In this document: positions 413 to 38,600 of the stretch, one piece after another
How the letters are laid out: every line of letters starts with the position of its first letter
Numbering within the stretch: the first letter of the stretch is position 1
Source of the DNA: a virus
DNA length: 38,673 nucleotides
IMG/VR virus record: IMGVR_UViG_3300041583_000437
Location: 1 to 38,673 of that record
Reading direction: 5' to 3' (one strand)
Notes under the pieces: generated by a model
Told to the model about the DNA's origin: nothing
The model's input: the letters and a program-made list of their open reading frames with translations, nothing else
Database searches by the model: none
Translations under genes and position numbers: made by a program

Positions 413-493
413 TCAGAGTATTGTCCAGTCGATCCCAATACGGAAACTGGAATCTGATTTTGAATTTGGACAACCAAAAGTTTCCAATACCAT
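413..493 (-). CDS. Possible 26-residue leader peptide, paralogous to the acb2 leader
   Basis: Reading leftward from an ATG at 493 gives 26 codons to a TGA at 415-413. The upstream GGGGG run is a weak ribosome site. The first 15 residues match the 38-residue leader at 26077-26193 at M, V, L, T, F, K, S and D positions without gaps. The DNA behind the similarity is better conserved than the peptide: about 36 of 50 bases match, and a hairpin at 487-466 is kept by compensating changes. It may therefore be a regulatory RNA or DNA element rather than a gene. I found no promoter directly upstream. Low confidence as a protein. Confidence 0.3.
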   Translation of the reverse strand: MVLETFGCPNSKSDSSFRIGIDWTIL

Positions 494-527
494 ACGCATC
501 CCCCGGAACCCGCCCCGGCCGGCCCTC

Positions 528-1233: not shown

Positions 1234-1620
1234 ATGGGACGCCCTAAGAAATACCGCTACACGCGTCAGACAGCGGAGAAGGTCCGTCAGATGGCCTCTC
1301 TGAAGATGTCCGTCACCACGATCGCTGACATCATCGGCATCCCCCCGAAGTCATGTTCCCGGTACTATGCCAAGGAGCTGGGTGAGGGACGTGCATTGGG
1401 GCAGGAAGCCGCCTCGAACGTGATCATGAACCTCATCGGCGCCAACGACTTCCAGGCAGCCAAGTTCTACCTTGAGACCTCTTCGGAGTGGAACAAGAAG
1501 AACGTGACCGAACTGTCGGGCCCGGATGGGGGCCCCCTCGAGGTGGAGGTCAACAACTCGGCCGTGGACATGTTGGCTCAGCTGTTGGGTCTCGACAACT
1601 CGGATGACGGGGACGAGTGA
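1234..1620 (+). CDS. Terminase small subunit
   Basis: This 128-residue protein is the probable small terminase subunit, which recognises phage DNA and hands it to the motor. The N-terminus has the short basic lead common in this group (M-G-R-P-K-K) and then a helix-turn-helix-like segment at about residues 12-50, with I-A-D-I-I-G-I as the turn region. The rest is helical and the end is acidic. The ATG at 1234 has a good ribosome site, GAGGAG, at 1222-1227. The stop overlaps the start of the large subunit, as in most terminase pairs. The call rests on the DNA-binding N-terminus, the size and the position before terL; sequence alone does not show the recognition site. Confidence 0.8.
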   Translation: MGRPKKYRYTRQTAEKVRQMASLKMSVTTIADIIGIPPKSCSRYYAKELGEGRALGQEAASNVIMNLIGANDFQAAKFYLETSSEWNKKNVTELSGPDGGPLEVEVNNSAVDMLAQLLGLDNSDDGDE

Positions 1621-4082
1621 TGAAGGCTCCGGTCCACATCAGCGACCTGCGGAAGCTCACCAAGTGGGAACAGAAGCAGATCCTCAAGAAACTCGGGCCT
1701 GCCCGGGCCGATGAGCTGATGCACACATGGACCTTCTTCGCACGTCCGAACCAGCTCCCACCAAACAACACCGATTGGTTCTGCTTCATGTTCCTTGCCG
1801 GCCGTGGAGCCGGTAAGGCCCTCGACGTTGACACCCCTATCCGGTGCGTTGACGGGTGGAAGCGTATGGGTGACGTGGTGGCTGGAGATCAGGTGTTTGA
1901 CGAGAATGGCTCCCCTTGCCGGGTCGTCGTGGCACACACCCCCTTCGTTTCTGAGGAGGCGTACCGAATCACCTTTGCTGACGGTGAGAAGATAGTCGCA
2001 TGCCGTGACCACCTGTGGGTGACCCATGACGCGTTGGAGCGTAAGCGCCTCAACCGGCGCGGAGACGTCATCCCGGGGGACTGGGCAGATAAACCGTACC
2101 TGACAACAAGAGACCTGTTCGAGACCCAGGTGTACGGCAAGCGCGGGGACCGAAACCACTCGATCCCACTGGCCAAGCCTCTCCAGACCGTACCGTGTCA
2201 CCTCCCTATCGACCCCTACATCTTTGGGGTTTGGTTGGGGGATGGGCACTCAGCCGGGGCTGCCCTCACAACGATGGAGCCTGAGATCGTTGAGGCGATG
2301 GAGAATGCCGGGTACACCCCTCGCAGGCACCAGAGCACGAACAACGGCCTGGCCTCCACCTACGGGTTTGGGTCGAAGGATGACGTCAGGGACCAGGAGA
2401 GCGGACGCATGCTCTCCAACGGGTCCGTCCACAGCTCCCTGAGGGCTCTGGGTGTCGTCAAGAACAAACACATCCCATGGGTGTACCTCAACGCGTCTGT
2501 GGAGGACCGGCTGGCTCTGTTCCAGGGGTTGATTGACTCTGATGGATATGTGGACAAGAACCTTGTCGAGTTCACCTCCTGCAACCGGAAACTAGCCGAG
2601 GACTTTATCGAACTGGCCGCCGGGTTGGGGGAGAAGCCGGTTCTTCGTGAGGGTCGTGCGACCTTGAACGGACGTGACTGTGGACCTAAATACCGGGTAC
2701 ACTTCCGTGCGGTAAACCCTCCGAGCCGTCTCCCACGGAAGGCGGCGCACTGGGTAGCCCCAGAGGAAACCAAACAGGCCCTGAGGAACCGTCACCGAAT
2801 GATCACGTCTGTTGTCCCTGTCGGGGTCACCCACGTCCGTTGTCTGACCGTCGACTCACCGAACTCGATGTTCCTGGCGGGCCGCTCCCTGACTCCCACT
2901 CACAACACTCGTTCCGGGGCCGAGTGGGTCCGTGACCAGGTCAAGCGTGGGAAGAAGCGTATCGCCCTCCTGGCCCCTACCGCGTCCGACTGTCGGGACA
3001 CCCTGGTCGAAGGTGAATCCGGGATCCTGGCCGTGTGCTGGGAGCACGACCGGGACCTGAAGGGGAACCTGGTAGGGAAGCCCAAGTACGAGCCCTCCAA
3101 GCGTCAGCTGACATGGGCCAACGGGGCCATCGCCAAGATGTACTCCGCGGAGGAGCCTGAGCGTCTTCGTGGTCCTCAGTTCGACGCTGCATGGGCTGAT
3201 GAGCTCTGTGCATGGTCCGACGATCAGGGAACCTGGGACATGCTCATGTTCGGTCTCCGCCTCGGGAAGCATCCGCAGATCTTTGTGTCCACGACCCCGA
3301 AGCCGCGCAAGCTGCTCAAGGACATCATGGGTGAGGAGACCACTTTGATCTCGACCGGGTCCACCTATGACAACGCGGAGAACCTGGCTCCGTCCTATCT
3401 CGCGAAGATGAAGGCCAAGTACGAGGGAACCAGACTCGGTCAACAGGAGCTTCACGCCCAGCTGTTGACGGAGGCTCAAGGGGCCCTGTGGGACAACACC
3501 CTGCTCGACGCCTGCCGGCTCGACGGGGAACCACCTGTGGACTTCCTCCGGATCGTGGTCGCTATTGACCCCGCCATCTCGACGAACAAGACCTCGGACA
3601 GCACCGGGATCGTCGTTGCGGCCCTGGGGACCGATGACAAGGTCTATGTCCTCAAGGACGTCTCCGGCCGGTACTCCCCTCAGGAGTGGGCCACGAAGGC
3701 GATCGACGAGTTCAAGTTGTTTGGCGCGGACCGGGTTGTCGCGGAGAAGAACCAGGGCGGGGACATGGTCAAGTACACCCTGAACACCATTGAACCGAAC
3801 CTGCCGATCCGTCTTGTCCATGCCTCCCGCGGGAAGGCTGCCCGGGCGGAGCCGGTCTCTGCCCTTTACGAGCAGGGCAAGGTGTGTCATGTCAAAGGTC
3901 TGATCGACCTTGAGGAGCAGATGGTTGAGTGGGAGCCCCTCTCCGGGATGGCCTCCCCGGACCGCCTCGACGCCCTTGTATGGGCAGTCACAGAACTGAA
4001 ACTGGGCGGGTCCACCCGTCCGACAATGTCCCTGGGGTACAAGGACGCCAAGTCCATCGAACGTGAAGAGGAACTGAACTGA
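1620..4082 (+). CDS. Terminase large subunit precursor with in-frame intein
   Basis: This gene encodes the packaging ATPase and nuclease. After removal of the intein (1818-2906) the exteins join to a 457-residue protein, a normal length for the HK97/GTA-type large terminase. The N-extein ends in G-R-G-A-G-K and the C-extein begins T-R-S-G-A-E-W, so splicing rebuilds the Walker A loop. Walker B lies in F-D-A-A-W-A-D-E-L, followed by the coupling segment S-T-T-P-K-P. The C-terminal nuclease shows V-A-I-D-P, V-A-E-K-N and D-R-L-D-A, giving the acidic metal ligands. I chose the ATG at 1620, which overlaps the terS stop; a GTG at 1617 would add one residue. The unspliced protein should be dead as an ATPase because its P-loop is interrupted. 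Confidence 0.95.
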   Translation: MKAPVHISDLRKLTKWEQKQILKKLGPARADELMHTWTFFARPNQLPPNNTDWFCFMFLAGRGAGKALDVDTPIRCVDGWKRMGDVVAGDQVFDENGSPCRVVVAHTPFVSEEAYRITFADGEKIVACRDHLWVTHDALERKRLNRRGDVIPGDWADKPYLTTRDLFETQVYGKRGDRNHSIPLAKPLQTVPCHLPIDPYIFGVWLGDGHSAGAALTTMEPEIVEAMENAGYTPRRHQSTNNGLASTYGFGSKDDVRDQESGRMLSNGSVHSSLRALGVVKNKHIPWVYLNASVEDRLALFQGLIDSDGYVDKNLVEFTSCNRKLAEDFIELAAGLGEKPVLREGRATLNGRDCGPKYRVHFRAVNPPSRLPRKAAHWVAPEETKQALRNRHRMITSVVPVGVTHVRCLTVDSPNSMFLAGRSLTPTHNTRSGAEWVRDQVKRGKKRIALLAPTASDCRDTLVEGESGILAVCWEHDRDLKGNLVGKPKYEPSKRQLTWANGAIAKMYSAEEPERLRGPQFDAAWADELCAWSDDQGTWDMLMFGLRLGKHPQIFVSTTPKPRKLLKDIMGEETTLISTGSTYDNAENLAPSYLAKMKAKYEGTRLGQQELHAQLLTEAQGALWDNTLLDACRLDGEPPVDFLRIVVAIDPAISTNKTSDSTGIVVAALGTDDKVYVLKDVSGRYSPQEWATKAIDEFKLFGADRVVAEKNQGGDMVKYTLNTIEPNLPIRLVHASRGKAARAEPVSALYEQGKVCHVKGLIDLEEQMVEWEPLSGMASPDRLDALVWAVTELKLGGSTRPTMSLGYKDAKSIEREEELN
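1818..2906 (+). mobile_element. Class 3 intein with LAGLIDADG homing endonuclease in terL
   Basis: The 363-residue insert starts with Ala, not Cys or Ser, and ends T-H-N before extein Thr. It has the three residues that define class 3 inteins: Trp67 two residues after His65 in block B, Cys342 in block F (R-C-L-T-V), and Thr361 just before the penultimate His362 in block G. In class 3 inteins the block F Cys makes the first attack, so Ala at position 1 is expected rather than a defect. Between the splicing halves lie two LAGLIDADG-type motifs, F-G-V-W-L-G-D-G at 136-143 and L-F-Q-G-L-I-D-S-D-G at 234-243, so the homing endonuclease looks complete. All splicing residues are present, and I expect it to be active. 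The homing target would be an intein-free terL P-loop. Confidence 0.93.
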
Positions 4083-5569
4083 TGACAAAACAGCTGACCC
4101 AGGGCGCCGCCTTCAAGGAGATGGGTGTTGGCGGGGTGAACACCCGCAACAAAGGATCATTCCTCCAGGACGAGTTCCTGCCGGAGCTCCGTGGCCGTCG
4201 GGCTGTTCGGAAGTACCGTGAGATGGCGGACAATGACCCCATCATCGGTGCAGCCCTGCATGCCATGAAACAGACCCTCCGGAACACCACCATCGACGTG
4301 GTCGCGGTTGATGAGAGCGCCGCAGCCGTGAAGGAGAAGGAGTTCGTTGAGTCCGTGCTCAAGGACATGGACCACAGCATTGAAGACTTCATCGCGGAGG
4401 TTCTCACCTTCCTGGAGTACGGGTGGAGCTGGTTCGAGGTCGTCTACAAGCGTCGGGACGGGATGAAGACCTCCACCCAAAAGTTCCGGTCCCTGTATAC
4501 GGACGGCCGGATCGGGGTCAGGAAGCTGGCGCCTCGGGCCCAGTGGACCACAGAACACTTCGAGATCACGGACCAGGGTGACATCATGGGGATGTGGCAG
4601 GAGGGCACGATCGGTAAGGGCCGGATCTTCCTCACCAAGGCCAAGAGCATTCACTTCCGCACCACCACCGTGAACAACGAGCCCGCCGGCCGGTCCGTCC
4701 TCCGGAACGCCTATGTCCCGTACACCTACCTCAACGCCCTTCAGCGGGTGGAGGCCATTGGGATTGAGCGTGAGCTCACCGGGATGCCCGTCGGCCGGAT
4801 GCCGGCTGAGTACCTGTCCCCGAACGCCACAAACGACCAGAAGGCGCTCCGCGCGTCCATGGAGAAGATCCTCCGGGACGTACGGTTCAACGACCAGGGG
4901 TACCTCCTTCTCCCGTCCGACACGTACACGGACAGCGAGGGGAAGGTCTCCAACGTCAAAATGCTCGACGTCGAACTGATCGCCTCCCAGGGGTCCCGCG
5001 CCATCGACACCCGGCCGGTGGTCAACGGGTACCAGACGGACATCGCCCGGACCGTCCTGGCGGAGTTCCTGATGCTGGGCTCAGGGGCGCAGGGCTCATT
5101 CGCCCTGTCCAAGTCCAAGACGGACATCTTCCTCCTGGCCCTCGAGGGGTACATGGGAACGATCGTGGCGTCGATGAACAAGCAGCTGCTCCCGGTCCTA
5201 TGGGAACTGAACGGTCTCGACTTCGACCTGATGCCGACGCTCAAGGCTGGTGACGTTGCTCCTCACGACCTCCGTGAGATCTCGGGCTTCCTCCGGAACC
5301 TGAACCAGGCGGGGATCTCCGTATCGGATCAGCCCCACATCGTCGACGACCTGCTCCGCGCAGCCGGCCTACCAAAGATCAAGCCGGAGATCCGGGAGGA
5401 AACCGAGCGGAAGGCCCAAGAGGACGCACAGACGGCCACAGAGGCTCAGGAGGGGGCCGGTACGCCCCCGACTGCACCCACCCCACCCACGGAGACGGAA
5501 GGCGCTACTGAGACCGCTCCGGGCCTCCCAGGGCAGGGTGAACCGGACAAGAAAGAACCGGGGGCTTGA
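4082..5569 (+). CDS. Portal protein
   Basis: The 495-residue product is the portal, the dodecameric ring at the head vertex through which DNA is packaged and ejected. The N-terminal half (about residues 30-250) has the Mu gp29/DUF935-like look, including D-N-D-P-I-I-G-A-A-L and L-E-Y-G-W-S-W-F-E-V. The last 60 residues are rich in Pro, Thr, Glu and Gly and are probably disordered. The ATG overlaps the terL stop by one base. The order terminase, portal, protease, scaffold, capsid agrees with the call. The stop codon lies inside the -35 box of a promoter candidate at 5566. Confidence 0.9.
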   Translation: MTKQLTQGAAFKEMGVGGVNTRNKGSFLQDEFLPELRGRRAVRKYREMADNDPIIGAALHAMKQTLRNTTIDVVAVDESAAAVKEKEFVESVLKDMDHSIEDFIAEVLTFLEYGWSWFEVVYKRRDGMKTSTQKFRSLYTDGRIGVRKLAPRAQWTTEHFEITDQGDIMGMWQEGTIGKGRIFLTKAKSIHFRTTTVNNEPAGRSVLRNAYVPYTYLNALQRVEAIGIERELTGMPVGRMPAEYLSPNATNDQKALRASMEKILRDVRFNDQGYLLLPSDTYTDSEGKVSNVKMLDVELIASQGSRAIDTRPVVNGYQTDIARTVLAEFLMLGSGAQGSFALSKSKTDIFLLALEGYMGTIVASMNKQLLPVLWELNGLDFDLMPTLKAGDVAPHDLREISGFLRNLNQAGISVSDQPHIVDDLLRAAGLPKIKPEIREETERKAQEDAQTATEAQEGAGTPPTAPTPPTETEGATETAPGLPGQGEPDKKEPGA

Positions 5570-7618: not shown

Positions 7619-8632
7619 ATGACCATCAATAAATCCTTCCTGACGGCCAGAGGCGTTCACGTCGACAAGCCGTTGACCAACCTGACGATTGCGTACCTGC
7701 AGTCGACCGCCTCGTTCATCGCCGACAAGGTGTTCCCGAACGTACCCGTCTCCAACCAGTCGGACAAGTACTACAAGTACGACCGGGAGTCGTTCAACAA
7801 GCGCGTCGACACCAAGCGCGCTGAGCGGACCCGTAGCCGTCGTGTTGGCATGTCCCTGTCCACGGACAACTACTTCGCCGAGGTCTACTCGCTGAACACG
7901 GACTTCTCGTTCCGTGAGCTGGCGAACGAGGACACCGCCCTGGACATCCGTTCCGGTGGTTCTTCGATGTTGACCCAGCGCATGCTGATCGACCGTGAAG
8001 TCCGCTTCGCTGAGACCTTCTTCGGTGCAAGCATCTGGGCGACTGAGATCGACGGTGTGGCCTCTGCACCTGGCGCCGGTGAGACCATCAAGTGGTCTGA
8101 CTACCTGGCCTCGACCCCGATCAAGGACGTGACTGACGCTCATCAGGCGTTCATGCTCAAGTCCGGCGGGATCAAAGCGAACACCATGATCCTGGGCAAG
8201 CGCACCCGTGACACCCTGGTGAACCACCCTGACTTCCTGTCCCGTGTTAACGGTGGGGCGACCACGTCGAACCCTGCTGAGGTCACTGACCTGTTCATCG
8301 CGTCCATGTTTGGGGTTCAGAACCTCCACGTCATGGAAGCTGTTGTGGACAACGCGGCTGACGGCCTGGCTGAGGCCCTGGACTTCATCGGGGGCGACCA
8401 CGCGCTGCTCCTGTACGTTGCTCCGAGCCCGGGCCTGATGCAGCCTTCTGCGGGTTACACCTTCACCTGGAACGAGCTGGACAACGCGTCCGGTCTGGGT
8501 GTGGAGGTTCGCTCCTTCACGGGTGACTGGCTGGCGGTGGACGACATCGCTGAGATGATCGAGGTCCAACTGGCCTACGACCAGAAGGTCACCGGCGCGG
8601 ATCTCGGGTACTTCTTCAACGAGATCGTCTGA
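7619..8632 (+). CDS. Major capsid protein
   Basis: This 337-residue protein is the main head subunit. Its length, its place after scaffold and decoration genes, the strong upstream site (AAGAGGAACC) and the strong terminator just behind it all fit the most abundant structural protein. The sequence (F-I-A-D-K-V-F-P-N-V-P-V near residues 33-44, Y-Y-K-Y-D near 52, then a D-I-R-S-G-G helix region) resembles major capsid proteins of HK97 fold in alphaproteobacterial siphophages. It has no long N-terminal delta domain, which agrees with a separate scaffold gene. Codon use is strongly GC-biased. Confidence 0.9.
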   Translation: MTINKSFLTARGVHVDKPLTNLTIAYLQSTASFIADKVFPNVPVSNQSDKYYKYDRESFNKRVDTKRAERTRSRRVGMSLSTDNYFAEVYSLNTDFSFRELANEDTALDIRSGGSSMLTQRMLIDREVRFAETFFGASIWATEIDGVASAPGAGETIKWSDYLASTPIKDVTDAHQAFMLKSGGIKANTMILGKRTRDTLVNHPDFLSRVNGGATTSNPAEVTDLFIASMFGVQNLHVMEAVVDNAADGLAEALDFIGGDHALLLYVAPSPGLMQPSAGYTFTWNELDNASGLGVEVRSFTGDWLAVDDIAEMIEVQLAYDQKVTGADLGYFFNEIV

Positions 8633-18603: not shown

Positions 18604-19943
18604 TCGTACTAGGGTGGCATCGGCGGAGCCAGAAGGAGGAGTACCTTTTGGCCGGGACCGACAATAGGGGCTTCTCTCGGGACTTTGTAACGTCCCGGGA
18701 CTCCTCCGTCCGGCTTCGGGTGGAGAGCTCTTCTTCATTGTCCAACGATGAGGCGGCCGACGCGGAACTCCTCCTGAGACACTCTCAGCGGGCCCGGGAG
18801 GACATCATCTTCCCGATGACTGACCAGATGACCATGATCACGCAAGGCGCCTCCCTGGAGACCTCCGTCGTTGTGGGGCCTGATCGTGATTACTGGATGG
18901 GGTTCCTGGTGGTGTTCCGCGCGGACGGGTCCCGGGAATACCGGACGGTAACGAACCCTGGTGCCTTCATCCCTCCGGGGAACCCGAACGTGGTGGTTTT
19001 AGATACACCTATTTCCCTGAACATGGGGGACGAGGTGTTTCCCGGTTTCCAGGGGTTCCTACGGGACGGGGGTTCGATCACGAGGGACGGGTACAACAAC
19101 AACACTTTGTCTTTGACAGTGGAGTCTCGTCTCCGGTTCGGTCTTGTGCGGGCCCTTCCTGTCATCACCCCGATCATCGGGAAAGCCACCAAAACACCTT
19201 TGTCCGAGGGCTTGGAGACGACTGTCCGCCTGCCGCAGGAGTTCTTTGACAACGGGCTTGGGCCGGTCGCCGGGGAGCCTGAAACGAGCTTCCTAACTGG
19301 GCGCCGACAGCTGACCTTCAGGCCTCAGTCCCTGGCCGAGAAGAGGGCCCTGCGGACGTTCCTGCTGAGCCTTCAGGGTAAGGTGGGCCGGTTCATCCTA
19401 CCAGACTTCTCCCCATCCGCCATGGGCCCAACCCTACCCCTGGCCCAGAATGATGTGTCCGTGTTCTGTAATCCCCGGTCCGGCATCCCTCTCACAAGCC
19501 TTCTAGGGGACTACCTGGTGGCCCGCGTCGGGGGTCTTCTCTACGGGTCCCGGATCATCGGGGCAGAGGATAACACCCTCGTTATCGAACCTTTCCCCGT
19601 CGACGTGCCCGTGGGGTCCCCCGTGGGGCTTGGCTTCTGGTGCCGCTCCGATACGAACACGCTTACGTTTGAATCCACGGGCCCGCAGAAATACCGGATG
19701 GCGCTTGTTGCCCGGGAAACGGATGGGCCGGCCTTTACACCAACCACACTGAACCCGAAGGTGAACGTCTCCCTCGCGTACCTGCCGGTGTGGGTTAACG
19801 AGATCCCGCCATCCTTCCCTGTCGACGTCAGCCTTGCGGTTGTCCTCGTCGCCGAGATCGGCCTCCCGCCATCCTTCCCTGTCGACGTCAGCCTTGCGGT
19901 TGTCCTCGTCGCCGAGATCGGCCTCACTGAGACCGGTCTGTAA
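18600..19943 (+). CDS. Distal tail/minor tail protein
   Basis: The 447-residue product lies between the tape measure and the tail hub, where the distal tail protein is encoded. Its length and beta-rich body fit a minor tail protein that joins the tube end to the hub; the segment S-L-A-E-K-R-A-L-R-T-F-L-L-S-L-Q-G-K is typical of such proteins. The ATG overlaps the tape measure stop (ATGA). The C-terminus is odd: P-P-S-F-P-V-D-V then S-L-A-V-V-L-V-A-E-I-G-L occurs twice in exact copy, caused by a perfect 60-bp duplication at 19806-19925. No conserved domain is certain. Confidence 0.72.
   Translation: MIVLGWHRRSQKEEYLLAGTDNRGFSRDFVTSRDSSVRLRVESSSSLSNDEAADAELLLRHSQRAREDIIFPMTDQMTMITQGASLETSVVVGPDRDYWMGFLVVFRADGSREYRTVTNPGAFIPPGNPNVVVLDTPISLNMGDEVFPGFQGFLRDGGSITRDGYNNNTLSLTVESRLRFGLVRALPVITPIIGKATKTPLSEGLETTVRLPQEFFDNGLGPVAGEPETSFLTGRRQLTFRPQSLAEKRALRTFLLSLQGKVGRFILPDFSPSAMGPTLPLAQNDVSVFCNPRSGIPLTSLLGDYLVARVGGLLYGSRIIGAEDNTLVIEPFPVDVPVGSPVGLGFWCRSDTNTLTFESTGPQKYRMALVARETDGPAFTPTTLNPKVNVSLAYLPVWVNEIPPSFPVDVSLAVVLVAEIGLPPSFPVDVSLAVVLVAEIGLTETGL
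19806..19925 (+). repeat. Perfect 60-bp in-frame tandem duplication
   Basis: Bases 19806-19865 and 19866-19925 are identical. The duplication keeps the frame and adds 20 residues, a short hydrophobic strand with a Pro-rich linker, to the end of the minor tail protein. Complete identity suggests a recent event or an assembly duplication. Confidence 0.95.
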
Positions 19944-25562: not shown

Positions 25563-25756
25563 TCCTGGCGGGGTGCGGGGACAAGACTGCTGTGGTCCTG
25601 GATGTTACGCGGCTTGAGGTCTCTTGCCCGAACCCGACTGAACGGAAGCGTCTGTCCCACGGATCCACGTATCGGGACCTGGCCCTGTCCCGGTCTGAGG
25701 CAATAGCCGGGTGGGAGCGCTGCCACGGCGCCCTGGACGTGGTCAATCTGGAGTGA
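25523..25756 (+). CDS. Outer-membrane spanin lipoprotein (Rz1-like)
   Basis: The 77-residue product has a short signal with a clear lipobox, L-I-L-A-G-C, so Cys19 would be lipidated. It overlaps the end of the Rz-like gene by 40 bases. Two later cysteines may pair. It is larger than lambda Rz1 and not Pro-rich, but the lipobox and nested start make the call firm. Confidence 0.85.
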   Translation: MFERAAALGLVGLILAGCGDKTAVVLDVTRLEVSCPNPTERKRLSHGSTYRDLALSRSEAIAGWERCHGALDVVNLE

Positions 25757-25919
25757 CACCCGGTTACCGCCATCCGGGATCCCCTGGTATCGTCGGGGAT
25801 GGTTTGGGTTAAAAGGCCCACGTCGACCAGGTCAAGGAAACCCCGACCACAACTCCCAGGAAAAGGTCGACTAACCTGGAAGGCAACCCCGACAGGACCC
25901 ATCCCATCGGGTAACTCGT
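25757..25919. terminator. Convergent gap with imperfect repeats and a candidate terminator
   Basis: The late rightward block and the leftward block meet here. ATCCCC at 25779-25784 pairs with GGGGAT at 25795-25800, followed by a weak T-rich run (GGTTTGGGTT). Two imperfect direct repeats follow, each running from GTCGAC to CCCCGAC, at about 25822-25847 and 25866-25893. I see no long T tract on either strand, so termination may be rho-dependent. Confidence 0.45.
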
Positions 25920-26129
25920 TTAGCGGTGCATGACCGCTTTTACCGCCAACATAGCAGCTTCTTCTACCATATCAATGGCCCGATCCTGCGCCCGGGTCCC
26001 GTAAAGCACCGAAGCTGGTGTCGCCTGGTCGATCAGGTCGATCAACTCCGCAGCCTTCACCTTAATCGCGTCCACGTCAGGGTTTCCTGTCGGGTTGAAC
26101 CCACCTACAATTTGCTGTCCTTTGGTCAT
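25920..26129 (-). CDS. acb2: Acb2/Tad1-family cyclic-nucleotide sponge (anti-CBASS/anti-Thoeris)
   Basis: The 69-residue product matches the Acb2/Tad1 hairpin-domain family (also listed as DUF7681). The N-terminal part reads F-N-P-T-G-N-P-D-V-D-A-I-K-V-K-A-A-E-L, and the second helix reads R-A-Q-D-R-A-I-D-M-V-E-E-A-A-M-L-A-V-K-A-V. Known members form hexamers that bind signal molecules such as 3',3'-cGAMP (Acb2) or cyclic ADP-ribose isomers (Tad1), so CBASS or Thoeris defence is not switched on. Which ligand is bound here cannot be read from sequence. GAAGGAGAG precedes the ATG. It is the last gene of the leftward block and has its own promoter and leader, fitting early, separately controlled expression. 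Confidence 0.78.
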   Translation of the reverse strand: MTKGQQIVGGFNPTGNPDVDAIKVKAAELIDLIDQATPASVLYGTRAQDRAIDMVEEAAMLAVKAVMHR

Positions 26130-26193
26130 CGCTCTCTCCTTCGTGAACCAAATCTGATTTCAATTCTGAAAGCTCAAAAGTTTTCAGAACCAT
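26077..26193 (-). CDS. 38-residue leader ORF overlapping acb2
   Basis: An ATG at 26193 with a strong site (AAAGGAG) opens 38 codons that run 53 bases into acb2 in another frame. The peptide is acidic at first and then basic, with no known family. Its first 50 bases match the left-end element at 444-493, including a hairpin (26187-26182 with 26171-26166) that is maintained by compensating changes. Translation of this ORF would pass over the acb2 ribosome site, so it may control acb2 by coupling. A role as a peptide is unproven. Confidence 0.5.
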   Translation of the reverse strand: MVLKTFELSELKSDLVHEGESDDQRTANCRWVQPDRKP

Positions 26194-26349
26194 ACGTTTC
26201 TCCTTTTTTTGGGTCGGACCCCGCCGCGCCGCCTGGTGTGTCCTCGGGGCCACAGGGGTGTGTCCGAAGCGCAACACCGGGGGTGTGAGGGGCGCGGGGG
26301 GAAGGAGAGAACCCCGATTGCGCATTTGCCGGCTATGCCGCGCGCCCGT

Positions 26350-26383
26350 AGATCACATTTAGGTGATCTCACGAAGTTGTCAA
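26350..26383 (-). promoter_or_regulatory. Leftward promoter and operator for the leader and acb2
   Basis: A perfect TTGACA lies at 26383-26378 (minus strand), overlapping the end of the dNMP kinase gene. The -10 region, 16-17 bp on, is poor (TAAATG/AAATGT). It is covered by a 7-bp inverted repeat, AGATCAC-N6-GTGATCT, at 26350-26369. A weak -10 with a dyad on top suggests control by a bound protein. About 155 bases lie between it and the leader ATG (26194-26349); this GC-rich stretch holds no convincing gene. Confidence 0.5.
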
Positions 26384-26928
26384 GACCCGGCGATTATTTG
26401 CTGGATCTTCCGATGCAGGTCCTGTTCGGATCCGGTGTTGTCCAGGGAGAGCTCGAACCCGTTGAGACCGTCCTCCGACTTGTGTGAGCTGTTGTAGGAG
26501 ACCCCGGGTCGGGTGATCTCGATCATCATCCCTTGGAGGTCCCGGATGGCCCCCACCTCCTCCCAGAACCGAACGTCATCGATCACCACGTTCCCTCCTG
26601 CGGAGAGGATCTTTCTGGTCAGGCTCATGGTGATGTTCACCCAGAGGTTCGGGCCGATGAGTTCCCGTCCCCATTCGGTTCCCAGGGTCTGCATGGCGTA
26701 CCGTGCTGTGCGCCCCTCCAGGACGTCCAGGGGGGCCTCCTTGAGGTCTCCGTCGAGATGGCGGGTGATGGTGGCCGGGGTCATGCCAGAGGCCTCCAGG
26801 ATGGCTCTCAGGGCCCGCTTGATGGGGTCCGCGAACCGGAGCCGGGTGTAACCGAAACTGGTGATGGCGTCCGCCGTGGTGCTCTTGCCGGATTGGGCCG
26901 GGCCGGCCAGGCCGATCAGTCGTGTCAT
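26380..26928 (-). CDS. Deoxynucleoside monophosphate kinase
   Basis: The 182-residue enzyme should phosphorylate dNMPs to dNDPs for phage DNA synthesis. The P-loop is G-L-A-G-P-A-Q-S-G-K-S-T at residues 6-17. Later features are F-A-D-P-I-K (about 32-37), the R-x-x-x-Q-x-L-G-T-E segment (about 76-85) and V-V-I-D-D-V-R (about 113-119), all typical of the T4 gp1-like family. Its ATG overlaps the upstream stop (ATGA), after GGAAGAAG. Confidence 0.9.
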   Translation of the reverse strand: MTRLIGLAGPAQSGKSTTADAITSFGYTRLRFADPIKRALRAILEASGMTPATITRHLDGDLKEAPLDVLEGRTARYAMQTLGTEWGRELIGPNLWVNITMSLTRKILSAGGNVVIDDVRFWEEVGAIRDLQGMMIEITRPGVSYNSSHKSEDGLNGFELSLDNTGSEQDLHRKIQQIIAGS

Positions 26929-37275: not shown

Positions 37276-37305
37276 GTGTCTCTCCTTCATCTGCTGTGGT
37301 GGTGT

Positions 37306-38299: not shown

Positions 38300-38600
38300 A
38301 AGGGGACTTAAAGAAGATACTACTAAAGAAGAATACTACTAAAGAAGAGTACTACTAAAGAATACTACTTAAGTTAACAACGTTCTTCCTTGTAAAGAAA
38401 GAAAAGACTTAAGTAAGTACTTAAAGAGAAATACTTAAGTAAGTACTTAAAGAGAAATACTTAAGTTAACAACGTTCTTCCTTGTAAAGAAAGAAAAGAC
38501 TTTAGTAAGTACTTAAAGAGAAATACTTAAGTAAGTACTTGAAGAGAAATACTTAAGTAAGTACTTGAAGAGAAATACTTAAGTAAGTACTTTAATATTT
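38300..38600. repeat. AT-rich iterated tract, candidate replication origin
   Basis: About 300 bases are strongly AT-rich, unlike the rest of the genome. First come about three and a half copies of a 16-bp unit (TACTACTAAAGAAGAA) to 38370. Then a 92-bp block is repeated (38370-38461 and from 38462), made of one 40-bp part starting TAAGTTAACAACG and 26-bp units, of which there are five near-copies plus a partial one. Most 26-bp units contain the dyad TTAAGTA-AG-TACTTAA. Promoter plus adjacent AT-rich tract is the layout of the T7 primary origin, and the replication proteins here are T7-like. Positions 38601-38673 hold nothing that I can name. Confidence 0.65.

Follow-up and report, generated by a model that had tools for sequence, protein, structure and literature searches.

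In roseophage CRP-6 (MK613348; contig L103), a promoter-like element of the form GTTGACTnnTCnCnAAATCnGACGTCATACATA is present in three copies, at 4093-4128(+), 8031-8076(+) and 42211-42167(-), which lie in front of the primase, gp18 and terS genes. At its start is a -35-like hexamer, TTGACT, and it is oriented toward genes. In another described system, the alpha-r14 or cuckoo sRNAs of alphaproteobacteria, an anti-Shine-Dalgarno motif is displayed in a hairpin loop (PMC10746234). The locus analysed here lies in a 38.7-kb virus record (the window, meaning the whole of that stretch) and can be set beside both. It contains two related AT-rich elements, copies A and B, which we read, with a probability of roughly 0.4, as old paralogous copies of a cis-acting regulatory DNA site of ~50 bp, putatively bound by a protein.

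The repeated element and its surroundings

The late operon of the phage runs rightward and the early operon leftward (Table 1); the latter encodes DNA polymerase A, primase/helicase, exonuclease, resolvase, metallophosphoesterase and methyltransferase. Among the matches listed, the closest named relative of the portal protein is that of CRP-6 (56% identity), and the DNA polymerase is nearest to those of roseophages CRP-5 and ICBM2 (47%). No near DNA match to the first 25 kb of the window was found among phages. The product of the terL gene (1617-4082, +) has an intein-like insertion and measures 821 aa, compared with 458 aa in contig L011; its residues 298-346 carry a LAGLIDADG domain. A perfect 60-bp tandem duplication at 19804-19923 lies within a late gene or is an assembly effect.

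Table 1. Positions of the two element copies, neighboring features and operons in the window
Feature	Position	Strand	Remarks
Copy A, AT-rich element, ATG at 493-491	448..503	-	within the 1.2 kb of noncoding DNA before terS; directed away from terS
Copy B, AT-rich element, ATG at 26193-26191	26148..26203	-	convergent intergenic region downstream of the last early gene
8-bp dyad TTCTGAAA-N10-TTTCAGAA in B	26164..26189	-	arms identical in L009; A (464-489) keeps 5/8 pairs
Possible mini-ORF from B, ATG with early-type ribosome-binding site AAGGAGAAACGT	26079..26193	-	38 codons here, 17 in L009
Small Acb2/Tad1 hairpin domain gene with its own ribosome-binding site GAAGGAGAGAGCG	25920..26129	-	beside copy B; absent from L009
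Second conserved noncoding block, early 3' UTR, predicted three-way junction	26290..26347	-	between kinase and B; conserved in L009
Deoxynucleoside monophosphate kinase, last early gene	26380..26928	-	upstream of copy B
Early operon	~38.1 kb down to dNMP kinase at 26380	-	
Late operon	terS 1234, terL 1617, portal 4082, head protease 5612; ends with lysis-type genes near 25.7 kb	+	

Copies A and B constitute an ungapped direct repeat of 53 nt (451-503 and 26151-26203), 72% identical and 25,700 bases apart. Both are situated in noncoding DNA, and copy A is followed by further noncoding DNA as far as the contig end. Their best 50-mer (451-500 against 26151-26200) matches at 36 of 50 positions, the joint highest direct match in the window at separations above 200 bases. 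An earlier note on this DNA had reported the same count for 493-444 against 26193-26144; the repeat stands but the count does not, as that register gives 32/50 and a shift is needed to reach 36. In 300 dinucleotide shuffles, made in 100-base blocks of both noncoding regions, the maximum was 33 and none (0/300) attained 36, so that the resemblance is due neither to chance nor merely to low complexity. The duplication is real. Within the window, AAACTTTTG has two occurrences, in A and B alone, and a search with the element profile found no third copy. The GC content of the element is 30-42%, against 60% for the genome.

Several other repeats were observed in the flanking noncoding DNA. The extreme left contig end (1-207) consists of about five 40-bp tandem repeats, which likely caused the assembly to break there. 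The palindrome TAGTTTAATGCTAAACTA is found three times in an AT-rich stretch (230-247, 273-290 and 304-321), where it probably provides operators for some regulator. Upstream of terS, at 547-749, three diverged repeats of the GGTGGGTCCC...ACATGTAG type, spaced by 73 and 82 bases, are candidate packaging or regulatory sites. At the other end of the window, in front of the early genes (38305-38591), tandem-like repeats based on AAGTACTTACTTAAGTATTTC could possibly form an origin or promoter array.

The sole true homologue of the element in pattern scans of viral contigs was identified in a sister-phage contig, L009 (also contig L105), at 2552-2497(-). This contig is colinear with the window from 24.3 to 30.8 kb, with 82% identity in places, and its element is orthologous to B and occupies the same position, after the kinase gene. 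The two sequences differ at 2 of 55 positions (96% identical), while the aligned region overall is ~69% identical; B ranks joint first for conservation among all 52-nt stretches of the alignment, coding ones included, and is above most coding DNA. The excess over the regional average argues that B is under constraint at the nucleotide level. If B descends vertically, the duplication, at 72% identity, is older than the split of the two phages; exchange between phages could, alternatively, account for the likeness of B and L009. The earlier contention that the repeat reflects more than recent copying is thus upheld, both by these two identities and by the constraint on B.

Our knowledge of the element comes from three sequences, A, B and the L009 copy, none of which is an orthologue of A; the contigs closest in the packaging region, L011 and L012, stop short of its position. 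Scans of viral contigs with the patterns AAACTTTTG-N14-AAATCAGAT and TATGGTNNTGRAAACTTTTG returned 8 and 10 matches, respectively, and those other than L009 were discarded as being situated in unrelated sequence. The first pattern has 38 matches in 84,980 bacterial and archaeal species; these look like chance, since none is titled Rhodobacterales and none scores high on the element profile. Nothing convincing came from distant blastn searches with the L009 copy of B and with A against phages, with the L009 copy against plasmids, or from tblastn with the B peptide against phages.

One could envision that A is a decaying relic of the old duplication and that B alone is functional. The 28% divergence of A, its loss of 3 of 8 dyad pairs and its poorer ribosome-binding site would suit such a history, as would the contrast with B, which is nearly frozen between the phages. 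However, pure decay at such divergence would not be expected to leave AAACTTTTG and AAATCAGATT intact, and we regard this scenario as unlikely.

Pairing, coding potential and the neighboring gene

The earlier note proposed that the element is a leader whose hairpin is maintained by selection. It placed the ATG and the arms of the hairpin correctly, and the two pairs with compensated changes between A and B (C-G becoming U-A, A-U becoming G-C) do exist. The selection argument built on them fails. The full stem of B comprises 8 bp, and comparison with A shows 2 of these pairs compensated, 3 invariant and 3 broken; the earlier count had considered the surviving core alone. With differences at 3 of 8 positions in one arm and 4 of 8 in the other, random placement of the observed changes in the arms gives rise to two compensated pairs at a frequency of ~12% (p ~0.12), and 65 of 500 shuffles are as good as the observed A/B pairing. 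The covariation is therefore not significant, in a test that spans three sequences and has low power, and no further covariation was seen between B and L009. The predicted minimum-energy fold of copy A is a different one, in which the B-type hairpin does not appear. Two compensated pairs between two copies are insufficient for claiming a selected RNA structure; with three sequences, the evidence for structure is removed, while the structure itself is not disproved.

Folding calculations give a similar picture. The 8-bp hairpin is one that B and L009 are predicted to be able to form, but on the minus strand none of the isolated elements folds better than its shuffles (z from -1.2 to +0.2). Plus-strand z values are -3.6 for B, -1.1 for L009 and -0.6 for A. 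No Rfam family matches the window at the gathering score, or the interval 25700-26420 up to E = 2. A duplicated structured leader, with a hairpin upheld by compensatory change, could invoke the two compensated pairs and the fact that sliding the partners by 1-3 columns reduces pairing. Set against the three broken pairs, the chance level of the covariation, the different fold of A and the situation downstream of the element in L009, where there is no gene to lead into, these points leave it highly improbable.

That situation bears on the gene adjoining copy B, which the earlier note had taken for a probable anti-defense gene into which the leader leads. The gene type is borne out: the product, of 69 aa, matches the Acb2/Tad1 hairpin domain PF24729 (E = 1e-7), and the gene is likely a counter-defense gene. 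The leader role does not hold. Compared with L009, the window has ~240 extra bases directly after the element, containing the acb2-like gene and its ribosome-binding site. As L009 keeps the element without acb2, the gene represents an insertion beside a pre-existing element. No same-strand gene lies downstream of the L009 element before the convergent genes, and the regulated gene that should follow every occurrence of a gene leader is missing there, as it is after A.

The ATG raises a separate prospect, namely that the element provides a very short early peptide with its ribosome-binding site and initial codons (MVLKTFELSELKSDL... for B, MVLKTFDLSELKSDLDT for L009 and MVLETFGCPNSKSD... for A). 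The ATG is equally placed in all copies and is preceded in each by a G-rich or ribosome-binding-site-like stretch; in B this is of the early class (AAGGAGAAACGT-ATG), and the one residue change from B to L009, E to D, is conservative. However, the ribosome-binding sites of A and L009 are weak, the tails of the ORFs (26, 38 and 17 codons) are unrelated, and the peptide has no relative among 50,697 phage records. The differences between A and B are spread over codon positions 1, 2 and 3 as 5/4/5, with no third-position bias, and the majority alter the residue, which makes protein-level conservation between the copies unlikely. Between B and L009, all 13 of 13 synonymous codon positions are unchanged (p = 0.0016, relative to the pooled synonymous conservation of neighboring genes, in which 48% of fourfold and 75% of twofold sites are kept). 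Such sites are too conserved for a peptide and point to a constraint on the nucleotides beyond it. A mini-gene thus seems a doubtful explanation, about on a par with decay of A.

A possible DNA site or part of the early transcript

The features common to A, B and L009 are the blocks CGTATGGT, TG-R-AAACTTTTG and AAATCAGATT, arranged on the minus strand as CGTATGGT-N2-TG-R-AAACTTTTG-N14-AAATCAGATT; the stem is not shared by all three. These unpaired blocks fit a DNA site better than a folded RNA, and conserved blocks in noncoding DNA at regulatory positions are what a DNA operator would display. We infer that double-stranded DNA would be the functional form, and that a phage or host DNA-binding protein, either a regulator or an architectural one, may bind the two conserved blocks together with the intervening dyad. 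Each main noncoding region would then hold one copy of the site: one is the control region that precedes the packaging genes, the other the convergent region in which the early operon ends. A site of this type would account for the resemblance of A and B beyond all 300 shuffles, the near identity of B and L009 in a diverged region, the constraint on synonymous positions, the even distribution of differences over codon positions, and the low GC content. It also requires no transcript, and copy A, upstream of the early operon, bears no sign of leftward transcription. We favor it as making the fewest assumptions about AT-rich noncoding islands with shared blocks. On the other side, the small number of sequences and the lack of an A orthologue among them weigh against it, no known operator was identified, and the differences in the arms are many for half-sites of a single protein. 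Furthermore, the conserved stretch of B begins near a plausible ribosome-binding site, which would favor a role as RNA or ORF.

The main rival starts from the fact that B and another conserved block share one 3' UTR. B follows the last early gene on the same strand, and its region might function as an RNA element that is AU-rich and mostly linear, serving for instance as a site for an RNA chaperone of the Hfq type. The B hairpin may form in such an RNA, yet it would not be the feature that A and B have in common. The second block, 87 bases upstream, carries a loop whose sequence complements early ribosome-binding sites; possibly, B and this hairpin belong to a single non-coding RNA. The capacity of B and L009 for the 8-bp hairpin is in line with this idea, as is the strong GC-rich hairpin that follows the element in L009, where a 91-nt fold has z = -3.0. 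The unremarkable minus-strand folds of the elements alone, the non-significant covariation and the absence of an Rfam match argue the other way. Moreover, copy A has no known transcription in this direction and no anti-ribosome-binding-site block beside it. An RNA element is possible, though less probable than a DNA site.

The second block deserves attention in its own right. A three-way junction is predicted for it in both phages, but the fold is no more stable than those of shuffled sequences. One of its hairpins (26298-26315) has the loop UUCUCUCCUU, complementary to the consensus of early ribosome-binding sites, GAAGGAGAGA; on the plus strand, the exact GAAGGAGAGA occurs once, at this loop. 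A strong ribosome-binding site, GAAGGAGA(G/A)A, is common among the early genes on the minus strand, while the late genes, on the plus strand, have varied ones. Pairing of the loop is better at early gene starts than at late ones (p = 0.00018, for starts assigned by eye from the ORF list, that at 37290 being probably misplaced), and none of 2,000 random 10-mers from the genome (0/2,000) pairs as well with the early set. A control resembling the host ribosomal anti-SD also prefers early sites (p = 0.006), which indicates that part of the contrast reflects the generally stronger sites of early genes. A scan for the block recovered a relative in L009 only.

These features lend themselves to a more elaborate model, in which the early 3' UTR would encode a non-coding RNA made of the anti-ribosome-binding-site hairpin (26347-26290) and the AU-rich B. 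Through pairing of the loop with early sites GAAGGAGAGA, the early operon would silence its own translation in trans as the transcript accumulates, and A would carry the second domain elsewhere. We consider the model improbable as a whole, somewhat more so than the mini-gene. The neighboring hairpin offers a lead that is easier to test than A and B, since it predicts an early operon able to silence itself.

Comparison with described systems

The comparison with alpha-r14 concerns the hairpin at 26290-26347, not copies A and B. The two are alike in presenting an anti-Shine-Dalgarno motif in a loop. In the phage, however, there is a single motif-bearing loop, with UUCUCUCCUU rather than CCUCCUCCC; this loop fits the phage's own early-gene sites, the transcript is putative, and the hairpin has no Rfam match.

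The comparison with CRP-6 concerns the copies themselves. Homology of A/B to the CRP-6 repeat was considered and set aside: among 18 comparisons, the lowest p value was 0.003 before correction, and it gives no support after correction. Scanning for sigma-70 promoters (-35/-10 hexamers at 16-18 nt spacing) on either strand revealed none overlapping A or B. Whereas the CRP-6 element is directed toward genes, A points away from terS and B comes after the last gene, and both are devoid of a TTGACT-like hexamer. Should A and B prove to be a regulatory site, they would mark the control points of a marine phage group that is related to CRP-6 and has been little studied, and would offer a means of finding the phage or host factor binding to them. 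Most likely they are an ordinary site, a regulatory repeat of a known general kind: CRP-6, too, has a noncoding repeat with copies in front of terS and at further sites preceding genes.
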